Shown here: positions 26,194 to 43,879 of the stretch, in pieces
How positions within the stretch are numbered: the stretch's first letter is position 1
How the letters are laid out: each line of letters starts with the position of its first letter
NCBI GenBank assembly: GCA_027487835.1
Contig: JAIYCU010000012.1
Location: forward strand, 85,718-149,717
From: Bacteroidota bacterium
GTDB lineage: Bacteria; Bacteroidota; Bacteroidia; UKL13-3
DNA length: 64,000 bases
Direction: 5' to 3'
Position numbers and translations under genes: made by a program
The notes under the pieces: model-generated
Told to the model about the DNA's origin: nothing
The model's database searches: none
What the model saw: only the letters and a program-made list of their open reading frames with translations

Positions 26194-26931
26194 ATGCAGT
26201 CAAACAATTCAATTAATCAAAGTGAACGTCAATTTTTAGAAGGCCCAAGGTCAAGATTACAAGAGTTATTTTTCTTGTTTAAAGTATGCCGAGAATTTAT
26301 TAAAGGGTTTAGAGCTCTTCATTTTTTAGGTCCTTGTATAACCATTTTTGGTAGTGCTAGGTTCAAAGATGATAATATTTATTATGAACAAGCGCGAGAA
26401 ATTGGTGCTAAGTTAACTGATTTAGGTTTTGCTATAATGACAGGAGGTGGCCCTGGAATAATGGAAGCTGCCAATAGAGGTGCATTTGAAAACAATGGGA
26501 TTAGCATTGGTTGTAATATAGAATTGCCCCATGAGCAAAAGGGGAATCCCTATTTACATAAATGGGTAAATTTCAGGTATTTCTTTGTTAGAAAAACGTT
26601 GTTAATTAAATACTCTTACGGCTTTGTAATAATGCCTGGTGGATGGGGAACAATGGATGAGATGTTTGAAGCGCTCACCTTAATTCAAACCGGAAAAATA
26701 AAGGAGTTTCCGGTTGTACTTATTGGAAAAGAATATTGGAAAAACTTAATTGAGCTTACTGTTGATATGATTAATTATAAAACAGTGTCTGCCACAGAAA
26801 TTAAAGAATATCTTTTAATTACAGACAGTGTAGAGGAAGCAATTAAACACATAGAAAAATTCGCAATTGAGAAGTTCAAACTTAAAAAAAGCAACATTAT
26901 CAAGCCTAAAGCAATATTAGGAGAACGCTGA
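26194..26931 (+). CDS. LOG-family (TIGR00730) Rossmann-fold nucleotide phosphoribohydrolase
   Basis: A 245-residue cytoplasmic protein of the lonely-guy/TIGR00730 family. The signature motifs are GGGPGIMEAANRGA (about 84-97) and PGGWGTMDEMFEALT (about 148-162), which hold the nucleotide-binding and catalytic residues. Family members release the base from nucleoside 5'-monophosphates; in plants and some actinobacteria this activates cytokinins, while in most bacteria the physiological role is nucleotide salvage or unknown. An N-terminal helical extension (residues 1-45) is longer than in the shortest members. It probably shares a transcript with phoH and ends 23 bp from the convergent gldD. 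Confidence 0.88.
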   Translation: MQSNNSINQSERQFLEGPRSRLQELFFLFKVCREFIKGFRALHFLGPCITIFGSARFKDDNIYYEQAREIGAKLTDLGFAIMTGGGPGIMEAANRGAFENNGISIGCNIELPHEQKGNPYLHKWVNFRYFFVRKTLLIKYSYGFVIMPGGWGTMDEMFEALTLIQTGKIKEFPVVLIGKEYWKNLIELTVDMINYKTVSATEIKEYLLITDSVEEAIKHIEKFAIEKFKLKKSNIIKPKAILGER

Positions 26932-33468: not shown

Positions 33469-35025
33469 GTGAATCAAGAACTGATCATTAATTTAAACCC
33501 ATCGGGAGGAATTGATATTGCTATCTTAAAAGATCGAAAACTTGTTGAATTACACCACGAAAAAGCGGATAGTAATTTTCAGGTTGGTGATATCTATTTA
33601 GGCTCTGCCGGAAAAATCATGGCAGGTCTAAATGCTGCATTTGTTGATGTTGGACATGAAAAAGATGCCTTTTTACATTATTTAGATCTAGGTCCACAAT
33701 TCGATTCATTACAAAAGTTCACCAGAATCCTAAGAAGTAGTCAGCCAAAAGACTTTTCTATTACCAAGGAACACCTTGAAGCAGATATTAATAAAGGCGG
33801 CAAAATTACAGATGCCGTTAAAAGAAGTCAACAACTGCTTGTTCAAATCTCAAAAGAACCCATTTCAAACAAAGGTCCACGACTTACATCTGAATTATCC
33901 TTAGCTGGCAGGTATTTAGTTTTAATGCCATTTGATAATTCTGTTAGTATTTCAAAAAAGATTGCCAAACAGGAGGAAAGAAAAAGACTTAAAGAAGCAG
34001 TAAATGCTATTCGTCCGAGTAATTTTGGCGTTATTATTCGCACCAATGCAGAGGGCGAAAAAATTGAAGATCTTCAAAATGACTTAAAAGATTTATTGGG
34101 TAAATGGAATGAGATGTGCGAGCAATTAAAGCACGCCACTCCCCCACAGAAAGTTTTAGGAGAGAATGATAGAACCTTAACTTTGGTTAGAGATTTAGTA
34201 AACGAAAGTTTTACAGCTATTCATACCAATGATTTATTTCTGGCCAATAAAATTAAGGCTTATTTAAAAAGTAAGTCAACTGAACTTGAAAACATCGTAA
34301 AACATTATAACGGCAAACTTCCAATTTTTGAACATTTTGGAATAGATAAACAAATAAAAACCAGCTTTGGCAAAGAAGTTAATTTTCTAGGTGGTTCTTA
34401 TTTAATAATAGAACATACTGAAGCACTTCATGTTATTGATGTAAATTCTGGCAACACTTCAAATAAAGGAATTAACCAAGAAGAAAATGCCTTGCGAGTT
34501 AACATGGAGGCATGCGATGAAATTGCACGCCAGTTGCGACTCAGAGATTTAGGTGGAATAATTGTCATCGATTTAATTGATTTAAAAACAGCCGGAAATA
34601 GAAAATTAGTTTATGAAAAACTAAAAGAATCAATGAAGGGTGATAGGGCAAAACATAAGATTTTGCCAATGAGTCCTTTTGGTTTGATCCAAATCACACG
34701 TCAAAGAGTTAGACCCGAAATGGCAGTTGTTACCAATGAAAAGTGTCCAACTTGCTTAGGTAGCGGTGAAATTGCTTCAAGTGTGAGTATTACAGATGAT
34801 ATTGAAAGCCACGTTAAGTACCTTATTGAGAATTTACATTTAAGGAAGTTTACCATTGAAGTTCATCCATTTTTGGCCGCATTTTTAAAATACGGTCTTT
34901 GGAATTCGCCAAGATTTAAGTGGTTTAGACTTTATAAACAATGGATTAAGGTAAAACCTAACCAGGCATTGCATTTGGTAAATTACCGATTTATAGATGA
35001 GCGCGGCGAAGAGGTTGTTTTATAA
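33469..35025 (+). CDS. rng: Ribonuclease G/E
   Basis: A 518-residue endoribonuclease for rRNA maturation and mRNA decay. It starts at a GTG (NQELIINLNPSGG). The S1-like region (about 36-90) reads VGDIYLGSAGKIMAGLNAAF, then VGHEKDAFLHY. The magnesium-binding aspartates are D324 (HVIDVNSG) and D368 (IVIDLIDLK). The zinc-link cysteines are C426 and C429 (KCPTCLGSGE). There is no long disordered C-terminal scaffold, so the length fits RNase G or the catalytic half of RNase E. It follows the HU operon across a terminator, so it needs its own promoter in the 72-bp gap. Confidence 0.93.
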   Translation: MNQELIINLNPSGGIDIAILKDRKLVELHHEKADSNFQVGDIYLGSAGKIMAGLNAAFVDVGHEKDAFLHYLDLGPQFDSLQKFTRILRSSQPKDFSITKEHLEADINKGGKITDAVKRSQQLLVQISKEPISNKGPRLTSELSLAGRYLVLMPFDNSVSISKKIAKQEERKRLKEAVNAIRPSNFGVIIRTNAEGEKIEDLQNDLKDLLGKWNEMCEQLKHATPPQKVLGENDRTLTLVRDLVNESFTAIHTNDLFLANKIKAYLKSKSTELENIVKHYNGKLPIFEHFGIDKQIKTSFGKEVNFLGGSYLIIEHTEALHVIDVNSGNTSNKGINQEENALRVNMEACDEIARQLRLRDLGGIIVIDLIDLKTAGNRKLVYEKLKESMKGDRAKHKILPMSPFGLIQITRQRVRPEMAVVTNEKCPTCLGSGEIASSVSITDDIESHVKYLIENLHLRKFTIEVHPFLAAFLKYGLWNSPRFKWFRLYKQWIKVKPNQALHLVNYRFIDERGEEVVL

Positions 35026-35136: not shown

Positions 35137-35213
35137 GAATGTGATTTTCCGTAGGTTTTTACATCATTCACATTCAAAATTAAAATAATAACTCACTCTT
35201 AAATTGTGAGTTA
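35137..35213 (+). promoter_or_regulatory. Leader of the polysaccharide locus with two inverted repeats
   Basis: In the 202-bp gap before the locus, GAATGTGA (35137-35144) is inverted as TCACATTC (35168-35175), and TAACTCAC (35189-35196) as GTGAGTTA (35206-35213) with a 9-base loop. The second hairpin ends 14 bp before the first ATG. Neither is followed by a T-run, so simple termination is unlikely. They could be operators or RNA control structures. I could not place a TAnnTTTG element here. Confidence 0.4.
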
Positions 35214-35227
35214 CTTGGCGAAGCTTT

Positions 35228-35972
35228 ATGAAATTAATTAACAAGAAGTTCTTATTTATTATCCCGTCGCTTATCATTTTTTTTTGGATCCTGCGTGAGT
35301 TCAAAACGGATGAGCAATTTTAACCAACTTAAAAATGATGGATTTATAAAATTAGACACTATTCAAGCCGTCTTTAAAATTTCGCCTGGTGACATTATTA
35401 AAGTTAATGTTTCAAATGTTGACATTCAAACTTTATCGATTTATACAAATTTTAACAATTCAGGTGGTGGATTGGTAAACCAATTAGGCTTCTTACAATT
35501 ACCAACTTTAGGTTCATTAATGGTTAAAGGAAAAACTGAATTTGAATTGAAAAGTGAAATTGAAAAAATGTTAAAAGAACAATTAATTGCAGTAAGTCCT
35601 TTTATTGAAATTGAAGTTATCAATAAAGGTATTTCTGTTTTAGGGGAAGTTAATAGGCCGGGGAGATTAGCGTTTCAGGGTAATGGAATAACTTTCCCAG
35701 AGGCTTTAGCCTTAGCCGGAGATTTTACGAGTTTTGCAAAAAGGAATAATATCCTATTAATTAGGAAAGAAGAAAACGGACTGAAATACATGCGGTTTAA
35801 TATTAATGATTCAAGTGCATTTTCAAATCAAGTATATTTTTTAAAACAAAATGATATTATTTATATCGAACCAAACGCAGCAAAGGTATTTACTGCTAGC
35901 CAAAGTCGAGCCATTTTGGGTTTCATAACAGGTTTAGTTAGTTTATTTTTAATTGTTACAACTTTAAGATAA
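35228..35972 (+). CDS. Wza-like polysaccharide export (OPX) lipoprotein, frameshifted at a T9 tract
   Basis: The outer-membrane export component of the locus. As written, the ATG at 35228 encodes MKLINKKFLFIIPSLIIFF and then leaves frame to a stop after 31 codons. The rest of the protein is open from a GTG at 35295 (225 residues). Removing one T from the run 35277-35285 joins both parts and creates a lipobox, FFGSC, with lipid-bearing Cys22 and a 247-residue protein. The body has the OPX/SLBB features: FKISPGDIIKVNV, LPTLGSLMVKGKTEFEL, VLGEVNRPGRLAFQGNGITF, and a C-terminal hydrophobic segment (about the last 22 residues). It may be a sequencing error, a real mutation or a phase switch. The Wzc-like gene starts 3 bp later. 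Confidence 0.8.
35277..35285 (+). repeat. T9 homopolymer in the OPX signal sequence
   Basis: Nine T residues lie within the lipoprotein signal of the Wza-like gene. Eight would restore the frame. The run is long enough for slipped-strand changes and also for sequencing miscounts. Confidence 0.75.
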
Positions 35973-35975
35973 ATC

Positions 35976-38378
35976 ATGCTAGACAATAGTAATAATCCTT
36001 TTGAAACTAATAAAACTGAAAATTTACTTGCAAGCCTAATTTACAAGTTCTTACCTTATTGGAATATTTTTGTACTTGCAATATTATTGTCGGTTGTCAT
36101 ATCATGGCTATACCTAAAAATGCAAACGCCAATTTATGATGCAAGCGCCCAAATATTATTAAAAGATAATAAAACTGATGGGGTAGAAACGAAATTTTTG
36201 GAAGAGATGGTTAGCATGGAGCTCAACAAAACTGTTGAAAATGAGGTTGAAATCATTAAATCAAACAGAGTATTAAATCAAGTGGTTTTAGAATTAAATC
36301 TTTATGGTTTAAATTACTTCAAAGGAAAATTTAGAGACATTCCTTCTTATAATAAGTCTTCTCTAAAAATAGAAAGCAAAACACCTGAAAATATAATTGA
36401 TTTAGATTCTAAAATATTTTATAGCCATAAGAAAGGCTCTAATGATATTAAAATTAACAATAAAATATATCCTTTAGATAGTTTTATTCAAACACCCTAT
36501 GGTGTTTTGAAGTTCAATTTAGAAAATAGAGATATAGAGCTAAATGAACAAGATGAACATTTTTTTCAATTGACTTCTGTTAAAACTTCAATTAAGAGAC
36601 TTTTAGAGAACTTAAAAATTTCAACAAACTCTAAGCAAACAAATGTTATAAATCTTAAATTTTTTGACCAAATCCCTTCACGAGCAGAAAAAACACTAAA
36701 TAGCATTATTTCAAATTACACAAAGACTGTAATAGAAAACAAAAACAGGAAAGCTAAAAATACGATTAACTTTCTATCAAATCGAATAGAATTTGTAAAT
36801 AGGGATTTAATTAACTTAGATAATCAAATCCAACAAATTGAAAATGGAAATGCTGGGGTCAATATTTCTGATTTAGAAAATATATATCAAATTAGAACTA
36901 ACCAATTGAATCAGGAATTGGCAGCCTTAGAGGTTAAGTTTCTAATTATAAAGCAATTAGAAAGCCAAATTAATGGAAAAACTGAAAAAATTATCAATAG
37001 TTTAGCTGTAAGTGATGTTTCAGATCCTATTTTATTAAAATCAATTTCATCTTTAACAGAACTAGTTATACTGAAAAAGGAAAATGAAGTTTTATATGGA
37101 TTAAATGCACCCACCACAAAATCTATTAATGAAAAAATTTCATCCTTACAGAAAGAGGTAAGAACAAGTTTAAATGGAATTAAAACTAACCTTGAAATTA
37201 AAAAAGCTGAATTTGAAAATGAATATAATAGGCTAGTAAAAACGATGGTAGGGATCCCAGTTAAGGGACAAGTAATTTTAGAGCTGAAAAGACAACAATC
37301 TATTAAAAATAATATTTACATTTTTTTATTACAAAAACTTGAGGAATCTGAATTAGCATACGCTGCTACAGTTTCTGATGGCATTGTTTTGGCAAATGCA
37401 GTAGCAGGGTTTCAACCCATAAAGCCTGTTTCTTCGTCTATTTATATTTTGGGAATTTTTATTGGTATTTTTAGTGTTGTAGTATTTATTTTTCTAAAAG
37501 AAGATTTAAATCCTAATGTAATGTTTAGAACCGAAATAGAAAAGAGAACCAGCACCTCAATTTTAGCAGAAATATCTTACAATACTGATGAAAATCAAAT
37601 TGCAATTTTTGAAGGCAAAAAAACAGTAATAGCTGAGCAGTTTAGGGCCTTAAGAACGGATATTATGGAAAAACTTTCCTTAATTCAAGGAGGGAAAACA
37701 ATACTATTTACATCATCCTTTTCTGGAGAAGGAAAAAGTTTTCTATGCGTTAACTTAGCATCAAGTTTAGCATTAACTGGGAAAAAAGTTGCAATTTTAG
37801 AACTGGATTTAAGAAAGCCAAAAGTGTTTTTACTTCTAAATATACCTAGAGAACCTGGCATAACAAACTATCTAGCTGGTAAGGCAACCATTGATGTTAT
37901 TCAAAAAGATGTTATTTATTCAGAAAATCTAAAAGTTATTACTGCTGGTATTGTACCAGCAAATCCTACTGAATTAATTTTAAGTGATAAATTATCAGAT
38001 TTATTAGTTGAACTTAAGGCCAAATATGATTACCTTATAATTGATTCTCCGCCCATTGGATTGGTTACAGATGCTAAAATATTAAGTAGATTTTCTGATA
38101 TTTGTTTATACGTCGTAAGGTATAATTTTACGCCAAAAAACTTCCTTAGTTTGGTTCAAAAAATGAATAAAAATGAAGAGTTAGGCAACCTTAATATTAT
38201 TTACAATGGCTTAAGAAAAAGAGGTTTTGGAAATTATAATTATGGATATGGGTATGGGTATGGATATAGCTATGGGGATAGTTATAAATATGGTGGAGAT
38301 TACCTTGACGAACCTAAATCTAGGTTAAGCCAAAGATGGAACTTCTTTTTAAATAAAATTTGGAATAAAAAAATTTAA
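35976..38378 (+). CDS. Wzc-like polysaccharide co-polymerase and tyrosine autokinase
   Basis: An inner-membrane protein of 800 residues that would control chain length and export. A membrane helix (about 30-50) begins the Wzz-type domain (QTPIYDASAQILLKD), followed by long periplasmic coiled coils and the GNVR-like region, then a second helix (about 485-505). The BY-kinase domain has a Walker A, GEGKS, at 584-588, a Walker A' in LELDLRKPK, and a Walker B ending in D690 (LIIDSPP). The tail is a tyrosine cluster: ten tyrosines between 754 and 776. Phosphorylation of such a tail changes oligomerisation and polymer export in known Wzc proteins. It starts 3 bp after the OPX gene; its stop overlaps the permease ATG (TAATG). 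Confidence 0.93.
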   Translation: MLDNSNNPFETNKTENLLASLIYKFLPYWNIFVLAILLSVVISWLYLKMQTPIYDASAQILLKDNKTDGVETKFLEEMVSMELNKTVENEVEIIKSNRVLNQVVLELNLYGLNYFKGKFRDIPSYNKSSLKIESKTPENIIDLDSKIFYSHKKGSNDIKINNKIYPLDSFIQTPYGVLKFNLENRDIELNEQDEHFFQLTSVKTSIKRLLENLKISTNSKQTNVINLKFFDQIPSRAEKTLNSIISNYTKTVIENKNRKAKNTINFLSNRIEFVNRDLINLDNQIQQIENGNAGVNISDLENIYQIRTNQLNQELAALEVKFLIIKQLESQINGKTEKIINSLAVSDVSDPILLKSISSLTELVILKKENEVLYGLNAPTTKSINEKISSLQKEVRTSLNGIKTNLEIKKAEFENEYNRLVKTMVGIPVKGQVILELKRQQSIKNNIYIFLLQKLEESELAYAATVSDGIVLANAVAGFQPIKPVSSSIYILGIFIGIFSVVVFIFLKEDLNPNVMFRTEIEKRTSTSILAEISYNTDENQIAIFEGKKTVIAEQFRALRTDIMEKLSLIQGGKTILFTSSFSGEGKSFLCVNLASSLALTGKKVAILELDLRKPKVFLLLNIPREPGITNYLAGKATIDVIQKDVIYSENLKVITAGIVPANPTELILSDKLSDLLVELKAKYDYLIIDSPPIGLVTDAKILSRFSDICLYVVRYNFTPKNFLSLVQKMNKNEELGNLNIIYNGLRKRGFGNYNYGYGYGYGYSYGDSYKYGGDYLDEPKSRLSQRWNFFLNKIWNKKI
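38241..38276 (+). repeat. Hexanucleotide repeat coding for the Wzc tyrosine tail
   Basis: Six tandem six-base units based on TATGGR (one degenerate, TATAGC) encode alternating Tyr-Gly in the autokinase tail. Copy-number change by whole units would keep the frame and alter the number of phosphorylatable tyrosines. Confidence 0.8.
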
Positions 38379-39214
38379 TGAAAACTGAATGGAAATTTGA
38401 TGCTTCAGGTAACTCATTAAAATTAAGTTTTAAAGAATTATTAGGAAGGTCCAATCTTTTATGGATGCTAATTAAAAGAGATTTTATCTCCTATTATAAA
38501 CAAACAGTTTTAGGTCCATTATGGATTTTATTACAACCCTTATTTTCTAGTTTAGTATTCGGAATTGTCTTTGAGAAATTTGGACATTTTGGAAATAATG
38601 GAATGCCAAACACACAGTATTATTTAAGTGGATTTATTATTTGGGGATTCTTTACTGAATGCATTACCAAAACCTCTAGTCTTTTTAGAGATAATATGAA
38701 TCTGTTTGGAAAGGTATATTTCCCAAGAATCATTATTCCATTAGGGATTATTGGTTCTGCATTAATTAGACTTTGCCTTCAACTAATATTGTTACTAATT
38801 ATTACAGTATGGTTAAGTTTAAATGGAAATACATTTATGTGGGGATTCCATTTACTGTTTATTCCCTTAAGTATTGTAATGATGGCCATTTTAAGCTTTG
38901 GTTCAGGACTTATAGTAGCTGCATCAACTACTAGATATAGAGATTTAGCTTTCATCATAACCTTCGGACTTCAATTATTGCTTTTCTCAACAACTGTTAT
39001 TTACCCTGCATCTAATCTACCAGAACCCTATAGCATTATCGTTAGTCTAAATCCAATTTCTGTATGTGTTGATTTGTTTAGAATAGGTTTTGGTGCGCCA
39101 AATACGATTAATTTTAGCGGTGTAATTAGCTGTTCTTTTTTTCTAATTCTTTTTCCAATTTTAGGTTTTACCCTCTTTCATAAAGTAGAGAAAAACTTTA
39201 TAGATACAATATAA
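38378..39214 (+). CDS. Wzm/TagG-like ABC-2 polysaccharide export permease
   Basis: A 278-residue inner-membrane permease with about six helices, preceded by the cytoplasmic amphipathic stretch typical of the family (LLWMLIKRDFISYYKQTVLG, then PLWILLQPLFSSLVFGIVF). Members pair with a Wzt/TagH ATPase to flip a completed, lipid-linked polysaccharide across the inner membrane. The ATPase gene follows with a one-base overlap, TAATG. It closely resembles other Bacteroidota members in layout, and there is no sign of truncation. Confidence 0.92.
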   Translation: MKTEWKFDASGNSLKLSFKELLGRSNLLWMLIKRDFISYYKQTVLGPLWILLQPLFSSLVFGIVFEKFGHFGNNGMPNTQYYLSGFIIWGFFTECITKTSSLFRDNMNLFGKVYFPRIIIPLGIIGSALIRLCLQLILLLIITVWLSLNGNTFMWGFHLLFIPLSIVMMAILSFGSGLIVAASTTRYRDLAFIITFGLQLLLFSTTVIYPASNLPEPYSIIVSLNPISVCVDLFRIGFGAPNTINFSGVISCSFFLILFPILGFTLFHKVEKNFIDTI

Positions 39215-40446
39215 TGAAAGCGCTAATTGCTGAAAATATAAGTAAAGTCTATCGCAAAGGTTCAATTGGAAGTGGAAGCTTAGCCAAAGAATTAGAATTC
39301 GGTATAAAGCGAATGTTTCAAAGCAAAAGTTCGCAGAATAATAAATTATCAGATTCAGATTTTAATAAAAGTTTGGATCAAATAAGCTTTGAAATAGAGG
39401 AAGGAGATCGAGTTGGAATTATTGGGAAAAATGGCGCTGGAAAAAGTACTTTGTTGAAAATAATTAGTAGAATTACCACACCAACACAAGGAAAAATCAG
39501 AGGGTTTGGAAGGGTTGCAAGTTTACTTGAGGTAGGAACAGGTTTTCATCCAGAATTGACAGGTTTAGAAAATATCTTTTTAAATGGTTCAATTATTGGC
39601 ATGAAGAACGCCGAAATAAAAGCAAATTTGGATAGTATAATTTCATTTTCTGGCGTTCAATCCTATATTGATACGCCTGTTAAAAGATATTCATCTGGAA
39701 TGTATGTTAGGTTGGCATTCTCCATTGCCGCGCATTTACAATCCGAAATTCTAATTGTGGATGAAGTTCTTGCTGTTGGAGACCTTGAGTTTCAAAAAAT
39801 GTGTCTAGATAAAATGAAAGAAATTAGTCTTTCCGAAGGAAAAACTATTTTGTTTGTGAGCCATAACCTAAATTCAGTTTCAACTTTGTGCAATCAATCA
39901 ATGCTATTAGAATCTGGAAAATTATTACAAATAGGTAATACTGAGAACGTAATTAATACCTACATACAAAGAAGTAGTGTTAATAAACCTTTAAGCGAAA
40001 GATTAGATAAAAAAGGAAATCAAAAAATAAAGCTACTTCAATTTAAATGGTACTCAGAAAATGAAAAAATGGTGGTTTCAGGTAAAGACACGCATTTAGA
40101 GTTAACATTATTCTCAAGCTTATCCGAAGATATTAGTGTTGAATTTTCAATTGCTATAGATCATCAAGAAGGTTTTAGAATTTCTATTTTAAATAATGCT
40201 TTAATTAGTAAAAAATGTATTATTAAAAAAGGTGAAAATAGCATAATCATTAAGATTGCCACGCTCCCACTTCCAATCGGAATTTACCCTTGCACATTTT
40301 ACTTAGCTTCTAACGGGGAGATTTTCGAATGGATTAAAGATGCTTTTTATCTCGAGGTCTTAGGAGAAGCCTTCTTCCCAAATGGAAATTCTTTACCTCA
40401 AAAACAAGGTTTTGTTTATTTGCCATTTTCAATCCAAAACAATTGA
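39214..40446 (+). CDS. Wzt/TagH-like ABC export ATPase with C-terminal substrate domain
   Basis: A 410-residue ATP-binding subunit. Walker A is GKNGAGKST (71-79), the ABC signature YSSGM (159-163), Walker B LIVDE (180-184), and the switch histidine lies in FVSHNL. After the ATPase (to about 250) a C-terminal sandwich of about 150 residues resembles the Wzt carbohydrate-binding domain that recognises the modified non-reducing end of the exported chain. That domain often goes with terminal methylation, and a methyltransferase gene comes next. The following gene starts on a TTG within the ATTGA that contains this stop. Confidence 0.92.
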   Translation: MKALIAENISKVYRKGSIGSGSLAKELEFGIKRMFQSKSSQNNKLSDSDFNKSLDQISFEIEEGDRVGIIGKNGAGKSTLLKIISRITTPTQGKIRGFGRVASLLEVGTGFHPELTGLENIFLNGSIIGMKNAEIKANLDSIISFSGVQSYIDTPVKRYSSGMYVRLAFSIAAHLQSEILIVDEVLAVGDLEFQKMCLDKMKEISLSEGKTILFVSHNLNSVSTLCNQSMLLESGKLLQIGNTENVINTYIQRSSVNKPLSERLDKKGNQKIKLLQFKWYSENEKMVVSGKDTHLELTLFSSLSEDISVEFSIAIDHQEGFRISILNNALISKKCIIKKGENSIIIKIATLPLPIGIYPCTFYLASNGEIFEWIKDAFYLEVLGEAFFPNGNSLPQKQGFVYLPFSIQNN

Positions 40447-42958: not shown

Positions 42959-43879
42959 ATGGAGAAGAAAAATTTAAAACTTAGTATCATTATTCCAAAT
43001 TTTAATTCAGGAAGTACCTTAGAGCAAACACTTAATTCGATAATAGGGCAAAACTATCCAAATTTAGAATTAATTGTAATTGATGGAAAAAGTACAGATT
43101 CCAGTCTTGAAATAATAAAAAAATATAAGCAGCATATTAACTATTGGGTGAGTGAAATTGATAGAGGACAAGCACATGCAATAAACAAGGGGCTTAAAAT
43201 TGCAAAAGGTGATTACATAGCCTTTATGAATGCAGATGATTTATATTTACCTGGCGCTTTTAATCATTTTGAACGTCTTATAAAAAACAAATCTTACGAT
43301 TTTATATACGGCAATGTAATGGTTGGCATAAATCCTTTAAATTCACAAATAATAAAAAACAGTTTAACTACTTTAGATTTAGGCAAGCTTCTATTATTTT
43401 TTTTTAATGTTAGGTATATTATCCCTTCCCAAAGTGTTTGGATTAAAAGAGATTTTTTAATCCAAAATGAATTAGATATTTTAGATGAGAGTCTTAATTA
43501 TTGCATGGATTTAGAATGGTATTGCCGAATCTCCCTATATAATCCATATACATTTAAAATAAAAAAGCCTTACTCATTTTTCAGACTATCGGGAAATACA
43601 AAAACAATTTTAAATGCCAAAGCGATGAAAGAGGAATCGCTTTTGGTCGCTCAAAAATATTTATTCAACCTAAAAAATAATCAACTTAAAAATTGGCATA
43701 GATATAAGTTATTGGACAGAATACTTAGAAAAATCTATGCTAAAAAATTGAAATGCAATTTCACGGTTCTAGCATGGATCCTTAAAAAAACAGGGTTTAT
43801 ATCCATTTTTGACAAAAGGATTTTAGGATTATTTAAATTAGAAATAAAAAATGAAATTAGAAATATTACATCGAATTAG
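42959..43879 (+). CDS. Glycosyltransferase family 2 protein
   Basis: A 306-residue GT2 enzyme: LSIIIPNFNSGSTLEQTL at the start, ELIVIDGKSTDSS, GQAHAINKGLKIAKGDYIAF, and the metal site MNADDLYLPGAF (about 89-100). The C-terminal third is basic and helical, possibly a membrane-associated patch. A T9 tract (43397-43405) lies in the middle of the gene and is in frame here. The last 29 bp overlap the start of the pyruvyl-transferase-like gene. Confidence 0.87.
   Translation: MEKKNLKLSIIIPNFNSGSTLEQTLNSIIGQNYPNLELIVIDGKSTDSSLEIIKKYKQHINYWVSEIDRGQAHAINKGLKIAKGDYIAFMNADDLYLPGAFNHFERLIKNKSYDFIYGNVMVGINPLNSQIIKNSLTTLDLGKLLLFFFNVRYIIPSQSVWIKRDFLIQNELDILDESLNYCMDLEWYCRISLYNPYTFKIKKPYSFFRLSGNTKTILNAKAMKEESLLVAQKYLFNLKNNQLKNWHRYKLLDRILRKIYAKKLKCNFTVLAWILKKTGFISIFDKRILGLFKLEIKNEIRNITSN

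Follow-up and report, generated by a model that had tools for sequence, protein, structure and literature searches.

Does the first gene of a surface-polysaccharide locus in an environmental Bacteroidota carry an on/off switch, or has its reading frame been broken by a chance slip or an assembly error? The question arises in the window (the whole 64,000-nucleotide stretch analysed, G000:C23:85718-149717), part of a 3.38-Mb genome in 46 contigs that is 99.92% complete. On its + strand, direct reading of the sequence places the opening of a lipoprotein signal at an ATG (35228-35230), and a run of nine T (T9, 35277-35285, + strand) separates the frame of this ATG from that of a 225-residue body of the outer-membrane exporter OPX. 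A sequence-only reading had seen here either a phase switch driven by slippage or a homopolymer miscount. Its start codon, lipobox, tract and broken frame prove exact when checked against the sequence, the frames and an alignment with relatives, and slip or miscount is the right pair of options. The part without support is the switch as a maintained device: none of the four other same-genus orthologues has the tract, and such runs are not enriched.

Start codon, frames and relatives of the exporter gene

In the ATG frame, translation gives MKLINKKFLFIIPSLIIFFWILREFKTDEQF and reaches a TAA at 35321 after 31 codons (35228-35323, + strand), leaving a signal-like N-terminus without a lipobox. The OPX frame is +1 relative to the ATG frame (35228 mod 3 = 2 vs 35295 mod 3 = 0), is closed upstream by a TAA at 35235, and offers only GTG 35295 and ATG 35310 as starts before 35400. 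Translated through T9 in the OPX frame, the sequence reads ..FFFGSCVSSKRMSNF, with the G-S-C codons of an FGSC lipobox at 35286-35294 (+), and the body follows at 35295-35972 (+), its 225 codons showing no further lesion by open reading frame (ORF), Pfam or alignment.

Judged by its domains, this body is a genuine OPX protein. It combines the Poly_export and SLBB domains expected of the family, all above Pfam cut-offs (PF02563, 39.6 bits against 28; PF22461 of the SLBB_2/SLBB set, 33.4 against 27; PF10531, 32.5 against 27), and all eight solved sequences that it matches, 2j58 and 9r60 among them, belong to Wza or polysaccharide export proteins. Wza-type OPX lipoproteins carry the same domains (PF02563 plus SLBB), and here too the gene is followed by a Wzc-like one. 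The window's protein is shorter than Wza, however, with matches ending at query residue 192-199 of 225, and its 5' end is out of frame as assembled. The signal peptide and lipobox cysteine that family members carry in frame with the body are thus separated from it in this assembly; they are in frame in the relatives described below.

The surrounding genes fit an export operon and are syntenic in the sister species G007. The last gene before the polysaccharide locus (35200-62000) belongs to the RNase E/G family (33469-35025, +; PF10150, E 5.3e-96) and is 90% identical and syntenic in G007. Behind OPX lie, all on the + strand, a Wzc-like polysaccharide co-polymerase and probable tyrosine kinase identified by ORF and Pfam (35976-38378), whose ATG comes 4 bases after the OPX stop, a Wzm-like ABC-2 membrane component (38378-39214), a Wzt-like ABC ATPase (39214-40446; its Wzt_C match is below the Pfam cut-off) and glycosyltransferase genes.

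The locus finds its best matches in two same-genus MAGs of sister species, G007 and G009. Their OPX is 76% identical to that of the window and shares the same ATG and the same leader stretch (TGTGAGTTACTTGGCGAAGCTTTATGAAATTA), and its N-terminus reads in a single frame as MKLL..LFFGSCLNSKRISNFNQLK, including the FGSC lipobox. More widely, start, signal and cysteine stand in one frame in all 107 other OPX loci examined, 97 by a lipobox pattern that may match by chance and 10 by eye. The pattern failed in 11 of 108 loci, the eleventh being the window itself; these 108 represent 110 matches minus two records (L032, L033) identical to L003 and L004, and further near-duplicates are possible. FGSC itself occurs in six further OPX loci. 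Since the sister species share the leader, the ATG and the in-frame FGSC lipobox, and the 107 other loci hold all parts in one frame, ATG 35228 is considered the true OPX start. As a statement about this assembly, the broken frame is clear from the alignment with relatives.

The leader is itself conserved. An 8-bp inverted repeat (TAACTCAC/GTGAGTTA, 35189-35213, +) keeps 7 of 8 pairs in the two sister species, and the stretch comprising leader and start, CTTGGCGAAGCTTTATGA (35214-35231, +), which contains GCGAAGC, is identical in both. Across the conserved region 35189-35231, GGCGAAGCTTT comes after the inverted repeat and immediately precedes the OPX ATG. GCGAAGC is also found upstream of OPX in G008, G012 and G034. 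The element may serve a NusG-like factor as a site of loading or pausing, perhaps comparable to E. coli ops. Folding of the 171-nt leader RNA gave z -1.0, with 31 of 200 shuffles as good. The leader word TTGGCGAAGCTNTA was rejected as a general polysaccharide element: 41 genomes hold seven matches vs two for the backwards control, three of them this locus (G000, G007, G009) and four elsewhere with no adjoining OPX seen. The shorter word GGCGAAGCT has six sense and no antisense matches within 700 bases upstream of OPX, and eight sense and one antisense among all matches in the 108 loci; because four of the six upstream matches come from one genus, it is left as a lead.

A recent slip or a consensus miscount

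Comparison with relatives dates the break. The split arrangement is found in none of the 107 other OPX loci, making the window assembly the sole broken case among those examined. The tract is absent in all four other same-genus OPX orthologues (E <= 1e-30, among 19 genus genomes): G007 and G009 have an interrupted T4-A-T6 at its position, and a long T run is missing there from the more distant G008 and G012 (41-43% identity). T runs of at least eight do occur near the OPX start in five of the 107 other loci (L055, L085, L094, L097 and L109; from 120 bases before to 60 after the matching point), none at the place of the window's tract, and in each of them the OPX frame is open.

The window and G007 are collinear over ~37 kb. 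From 34 G007 ORFs of at least 120 aa with matches, removal of four antisense shadows left 30 gene pairs, of which 29 align in one frame along almost their entire length, a test that scores frame continuity and not start codons; only OPX loses its 5' end. In one unbroken pair (window 26137), nothing in the window corresponds to the start codon of G007, and the window ORF begins at 26194. The OPX body differs from that of G007 by a dN of 0.153, compared with 0.065 for the RNase gene (rng), 0.118 for wzc, 0.140 for wzm, 0.121 for wzt and 0.224 for a glycosyltransferase (all NG86; dN alone was used, as dS is saturated). Because the rest of the gene shows no decay, the break is, on this comparison, either young or an error. 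Record and genome searches, one of which may omit records very near the window's genome, found no second strain of the species, and viral_contigs held no other copy of the locus.

The preferred explanation, to which we give a probability of roughly 0.46, is a normal Bacteroidota OPX lipoprotein gene in which a recent, incidental slip, reversible by chance, has turned the exporter off or nearly off. The T run within the signal-peptide codons would have become uninterrupted in the lineage of the window's genome, probably before a one-base slip put OPX out of frame in the sequenced cells, if the extra base is real. In the T9 state the ribosome would leave the signal-peptide frame and stop after 31 codons. 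The lipoprotein would then be absent, or present in traces through RNA slippage or rare revertants, while any OPX made from GTG 35295 would have neither signal nor lipid anchor. Export of the polysaccharide of the locus would presumably be lost or strongly reduced, and translation of Wzc may also drop, since its start lies so close behind the OPX stop. Such a loss need not be lethal, as a second OPX gene is present elsewhere in the genome, behind a NusG-like gene (PF02357; G000:C20:195909-197241; L230, L002). The same kind of slip could undo the change, so that the site would be an incidental reversible contingency site rather than a conserved switch.

The frames, the tract, the conserved start, the relatives and the otherwise intact gene on which this explanation builds are all observed. 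Against it, both mutS and mutL are present, open and above cut-off, which rejects a mutator strain and leaves nothing of that kind to raise the slip rate, and runs of nine are, if anything, scarce in coding DNA.

The main rival is a miscount in the consensus, the cells holding an in-frame tract and the assembly one T too many. It is possible, though the less probable account. The break is confined to this assembly and the remaining gene is intact, which suits an error as well, and with 151 overlapping A/T nine-mers in the genome (90 and 61 on the two strands), a low error rate would suffice for one error. The run census covers 83 distinct runs of at least nine, drawn from 100 of the 151 nine-mers and including the window's four, and one broken case in this sample is compatible with error rates from one to a few per cent. 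On the other side, 29 of the 83 runs are found 30 bases or more inside open frames of at least 150 codons (frames called by size, which need not be genes), 29 of the 30 syntenic genes are unbroken, and an A10 tract in copA agrees with relatives, 15 genus genomes sharing A10 and a 16th having A11. These same three observations speak against a fault in homopolymer calling across the assembly. Given the runs inside open ORFs and the shared copA tract, long runs seem well called here, and a real change is ranked above a miscount, though not overwhelmingly.

Long A/T runs in the genome and in copA

How unusual is a run of nine? The T9 tract itself is not beyond chance. The window holds four A/T runs of at least nine, whereas 50 third-order Markov sequences average ~13.5; for the polysaccharide locus the figures are four observed and ~7.3 expected. 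The window's 48 ORFs of at least 180 aa contain three, vs a mean of 7.0 in 200 synonymous shuffles (lowest 2). With counts below expectation each time, long A/T runs arise by composition and, if anything, are avoided in genes. A frame junction within one protein was recognised at two runs only, OPX and copA; ten other runs are crossed by the frame of a downstream ORF, of which eight were inspected by eye and L147 and L149 left out. The longest of the 83 runs is an 18-base T/A run (G000:C23:76499-76516; L159:2100-2117; the others are of 9-10), located at the 3' end of an ORF of 419 codons and shortly ahead of the following one, and it is likely length-variable.

The copA locus (L186:1256-3393, G000:C34:4963-7100; homologues L187-L202 and L207) provides a yardstick for a maintained run. 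On one side of its A10 (G000:C34:5195-5204; L173:2096-2105) stands an 82-codon ORF whose HMA (heavy-metal-binding) domain matches PF00403 (E 4.8e-11); on the other, in the -1 frame of the HMA ORF, stands a P-type ATPase body (PF00122, E 3.2e-50). The run stands at the same place in all 17 genus genomes in which the junction is assembled, as A10 in 16 (the window's genome included) and as A11 in G016, in which the following base is an A too, with no change to the frames; of the remaining two genus members, G017 matches residues 274-628 only and G018 has distant P-type ATPases only. The CxxC of the HMA domain is visible in 16 of the 17, the contig of G011 beginning too late, and a stop closes the HMA frame 3-4 bases past the run in 16 genomes and 25 bases past it in the other. 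An arrangement so common to the genus is not an error.

The same arrangement occurs in G025, from another genus of the family (G036, of that same genus, was outside the comparison). A fused-like frame, open for 79-121 codons upstream and with no run of at least nine, is found in seven loci of three other genera in the family (L203-L206, L231-L233) and likewise in eight loci from other families (L208-L215). The run spans third positions (GAA or CAA, AAA, AAA), although the genes also use AAG, GAG and CAG, and no consistent fold was found downstream of it (z -1.8 to +0.9 in the 17 genomes, 100 plain shuffles each; -2.5 in G025).

These features make the copA tract a strong candidate for programmed slippage that would give an HMA-only protein and a full copper pump. 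The extension of the run over third positions and the lack of a consistent downstream fold make transcriptional slippage, with one base added, the preferred mechanism; re-initiation of a split gene and a ribosomal slip on A AAA AAA are possible alternatives. In E. coli copA, the in-frame product is described as the pump and a -1 ribosomal slip as yielding a 70-residue putative chaperone (PMC5009743). The logic in the genus would be the opposite of that account, with the small HMA protein as the in-frame product. No published report of the genus-type arrangement was found in the open-access literature.

Could the OPX gene be tolerated as it is, with RNA polymerase slipping on T9 so that some of the transcripts carry the right frame and yield sufficient exporter? 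The run of a Shigella mxiE transcript (U) and the A11 of C. rodentium tssM likewise stand between the two frames of one protein (PMC1088944, PMC4256274). T9 joins two frames with an A/T run of at least nine, the configuration of programmed transcriptional slippage, and nine T is a slippage length named in PMC1088944. Frameshifting of 20-25% is reported at the tssM A11 (PMC4256274), and the scarcity of nine-base runs in coding DNA matches the slippage-prone bacteria of PMC1088944. Retention of the frame-changing A10/A11 of copA in 17 of 17 genomes makes recoding at runs plausible in this very genus. Unlike mxiE and tssM, however, OPX would need an RNA change of -1 or +2 bases, its frame being restored by one base less or two more and not by one more, and its arrangement is not conserved (PMC1088944, PMC4256274). 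Slippage is described as adding nucleotides or occasionally leaving out a base or two (PMC1088944). With the arrangement in none of the 107 other loci, OPX also falls short of the two non-identical sequences that PMC1088944 asks for as a criterion. We consider this account unlikely.

A programmed -1 ribosomal frameshift, which would bring the ribosome into the second frame, is rejected: a -1 slip on T TTT TTT leads to the wrong, third frame, the OPX frame being +1 to that of the ATG. Against the copA yardstick, the OPX tract looks like an accident, given its lack of conservation, its unfavourable direction and the absence of a maintained frame pair. Also improbable is a two-level use of A/T runs in the genus, in which slippage of RNA polymerase would serve decoding (copA A10/A11) and the OPX T9 would be a young site of this kind, switched on and off by DNA slippage, with RNA slippage giving a low basal level of exporter in 'off' cells.

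That the surface polysaccharide has a dedicated phase switch under selection is distinctly improbable. The tract does lie at the 5' end of the gene that opens a surface-polysaccharide locus, where a broken frame precedes an otherwise intact gene, and a simple repeat between start and body that decides the frame of a surface-related gene is what marks a contingency locus. T runs of at least eight near the start in the five other loci point the same way, but they lie elsewhere and leave the frame unbroken. Retention in relatives or over-representation, supporting signs that are not strictly required, are both wanting (0 of 4 orthologues; no enrichment), and the three other nine-base runs of the locus are in frame. 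As runs are no commoner than chance and the sister tract is interrupted, a conserved switch is not supported by the comparison. The break is ordinary in kind and the switch, if one exists, is incidental. The three other runs, at 43397, 49204 and 54030, lie in ORFs of the polysaccharide locus, and slips there would likewise break its genes.

A real start at GTG 35295 or ATG 35310, giving a protein without signal, is rejected as next to impossible: the open OPX frame offers no other start before 35400, but neither codon is present in G007 or G009 (GTG 35295 aligns with CTT in both), where the upstream ATG and leader are conserved, and none of the 107 other loci shows a downstream start without lipobox, the finding that would have undone the sequence-only reading, all having a signal and a lipobox-like cysteine.

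Known systems and biological meaning

Capsule phase variation in Bacteroidota is known mostly from inversions driven by recombinases. For example, the phase-variable large capsule of Bacteroides fragilis, likewise a Bacteroidota surface polysaccharide with Wza-like and Wzc-like genes, is controlled by an invertible promoter through recombinase-mediated DNA inversion, whereas the feature seen in the window is a T run (PMC3090145). The same source describes a polysaccharide-locus gene of B. fragilis broken by a C added to a run of four C (PMC3090145). A close parallel is kpsC of E. coli K96, for which a reversible A7/A6 frameshift is described in culture and in two natural strains (PMC13410964). 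In kpsC, a one-base homopolymer change inactivates a surface-polysaccharide gene whose remainder is intact, as it would in the window if the extra T is real. For kpsC, however, reversion is demonstrated, two natural strains carry the change and the product is a capsule-initiation enzyme, whereas the window concerns an exporter known from one assembly (PMC13410964). Variation of the 5' poly(A) run of inlA is estimated in its report at ~1,000-fold above the frequency of point mutation (PMC2831843).

If the T9 state is real, export of a surface polysaccharide has been turned off in an environmental Bacteroidota by a simple slip. The sharper case is copA, where the genus-wide, position-invariant A10/A11 would let one gene yield a complete copper pump as well as a small HMA protein that binds copper.
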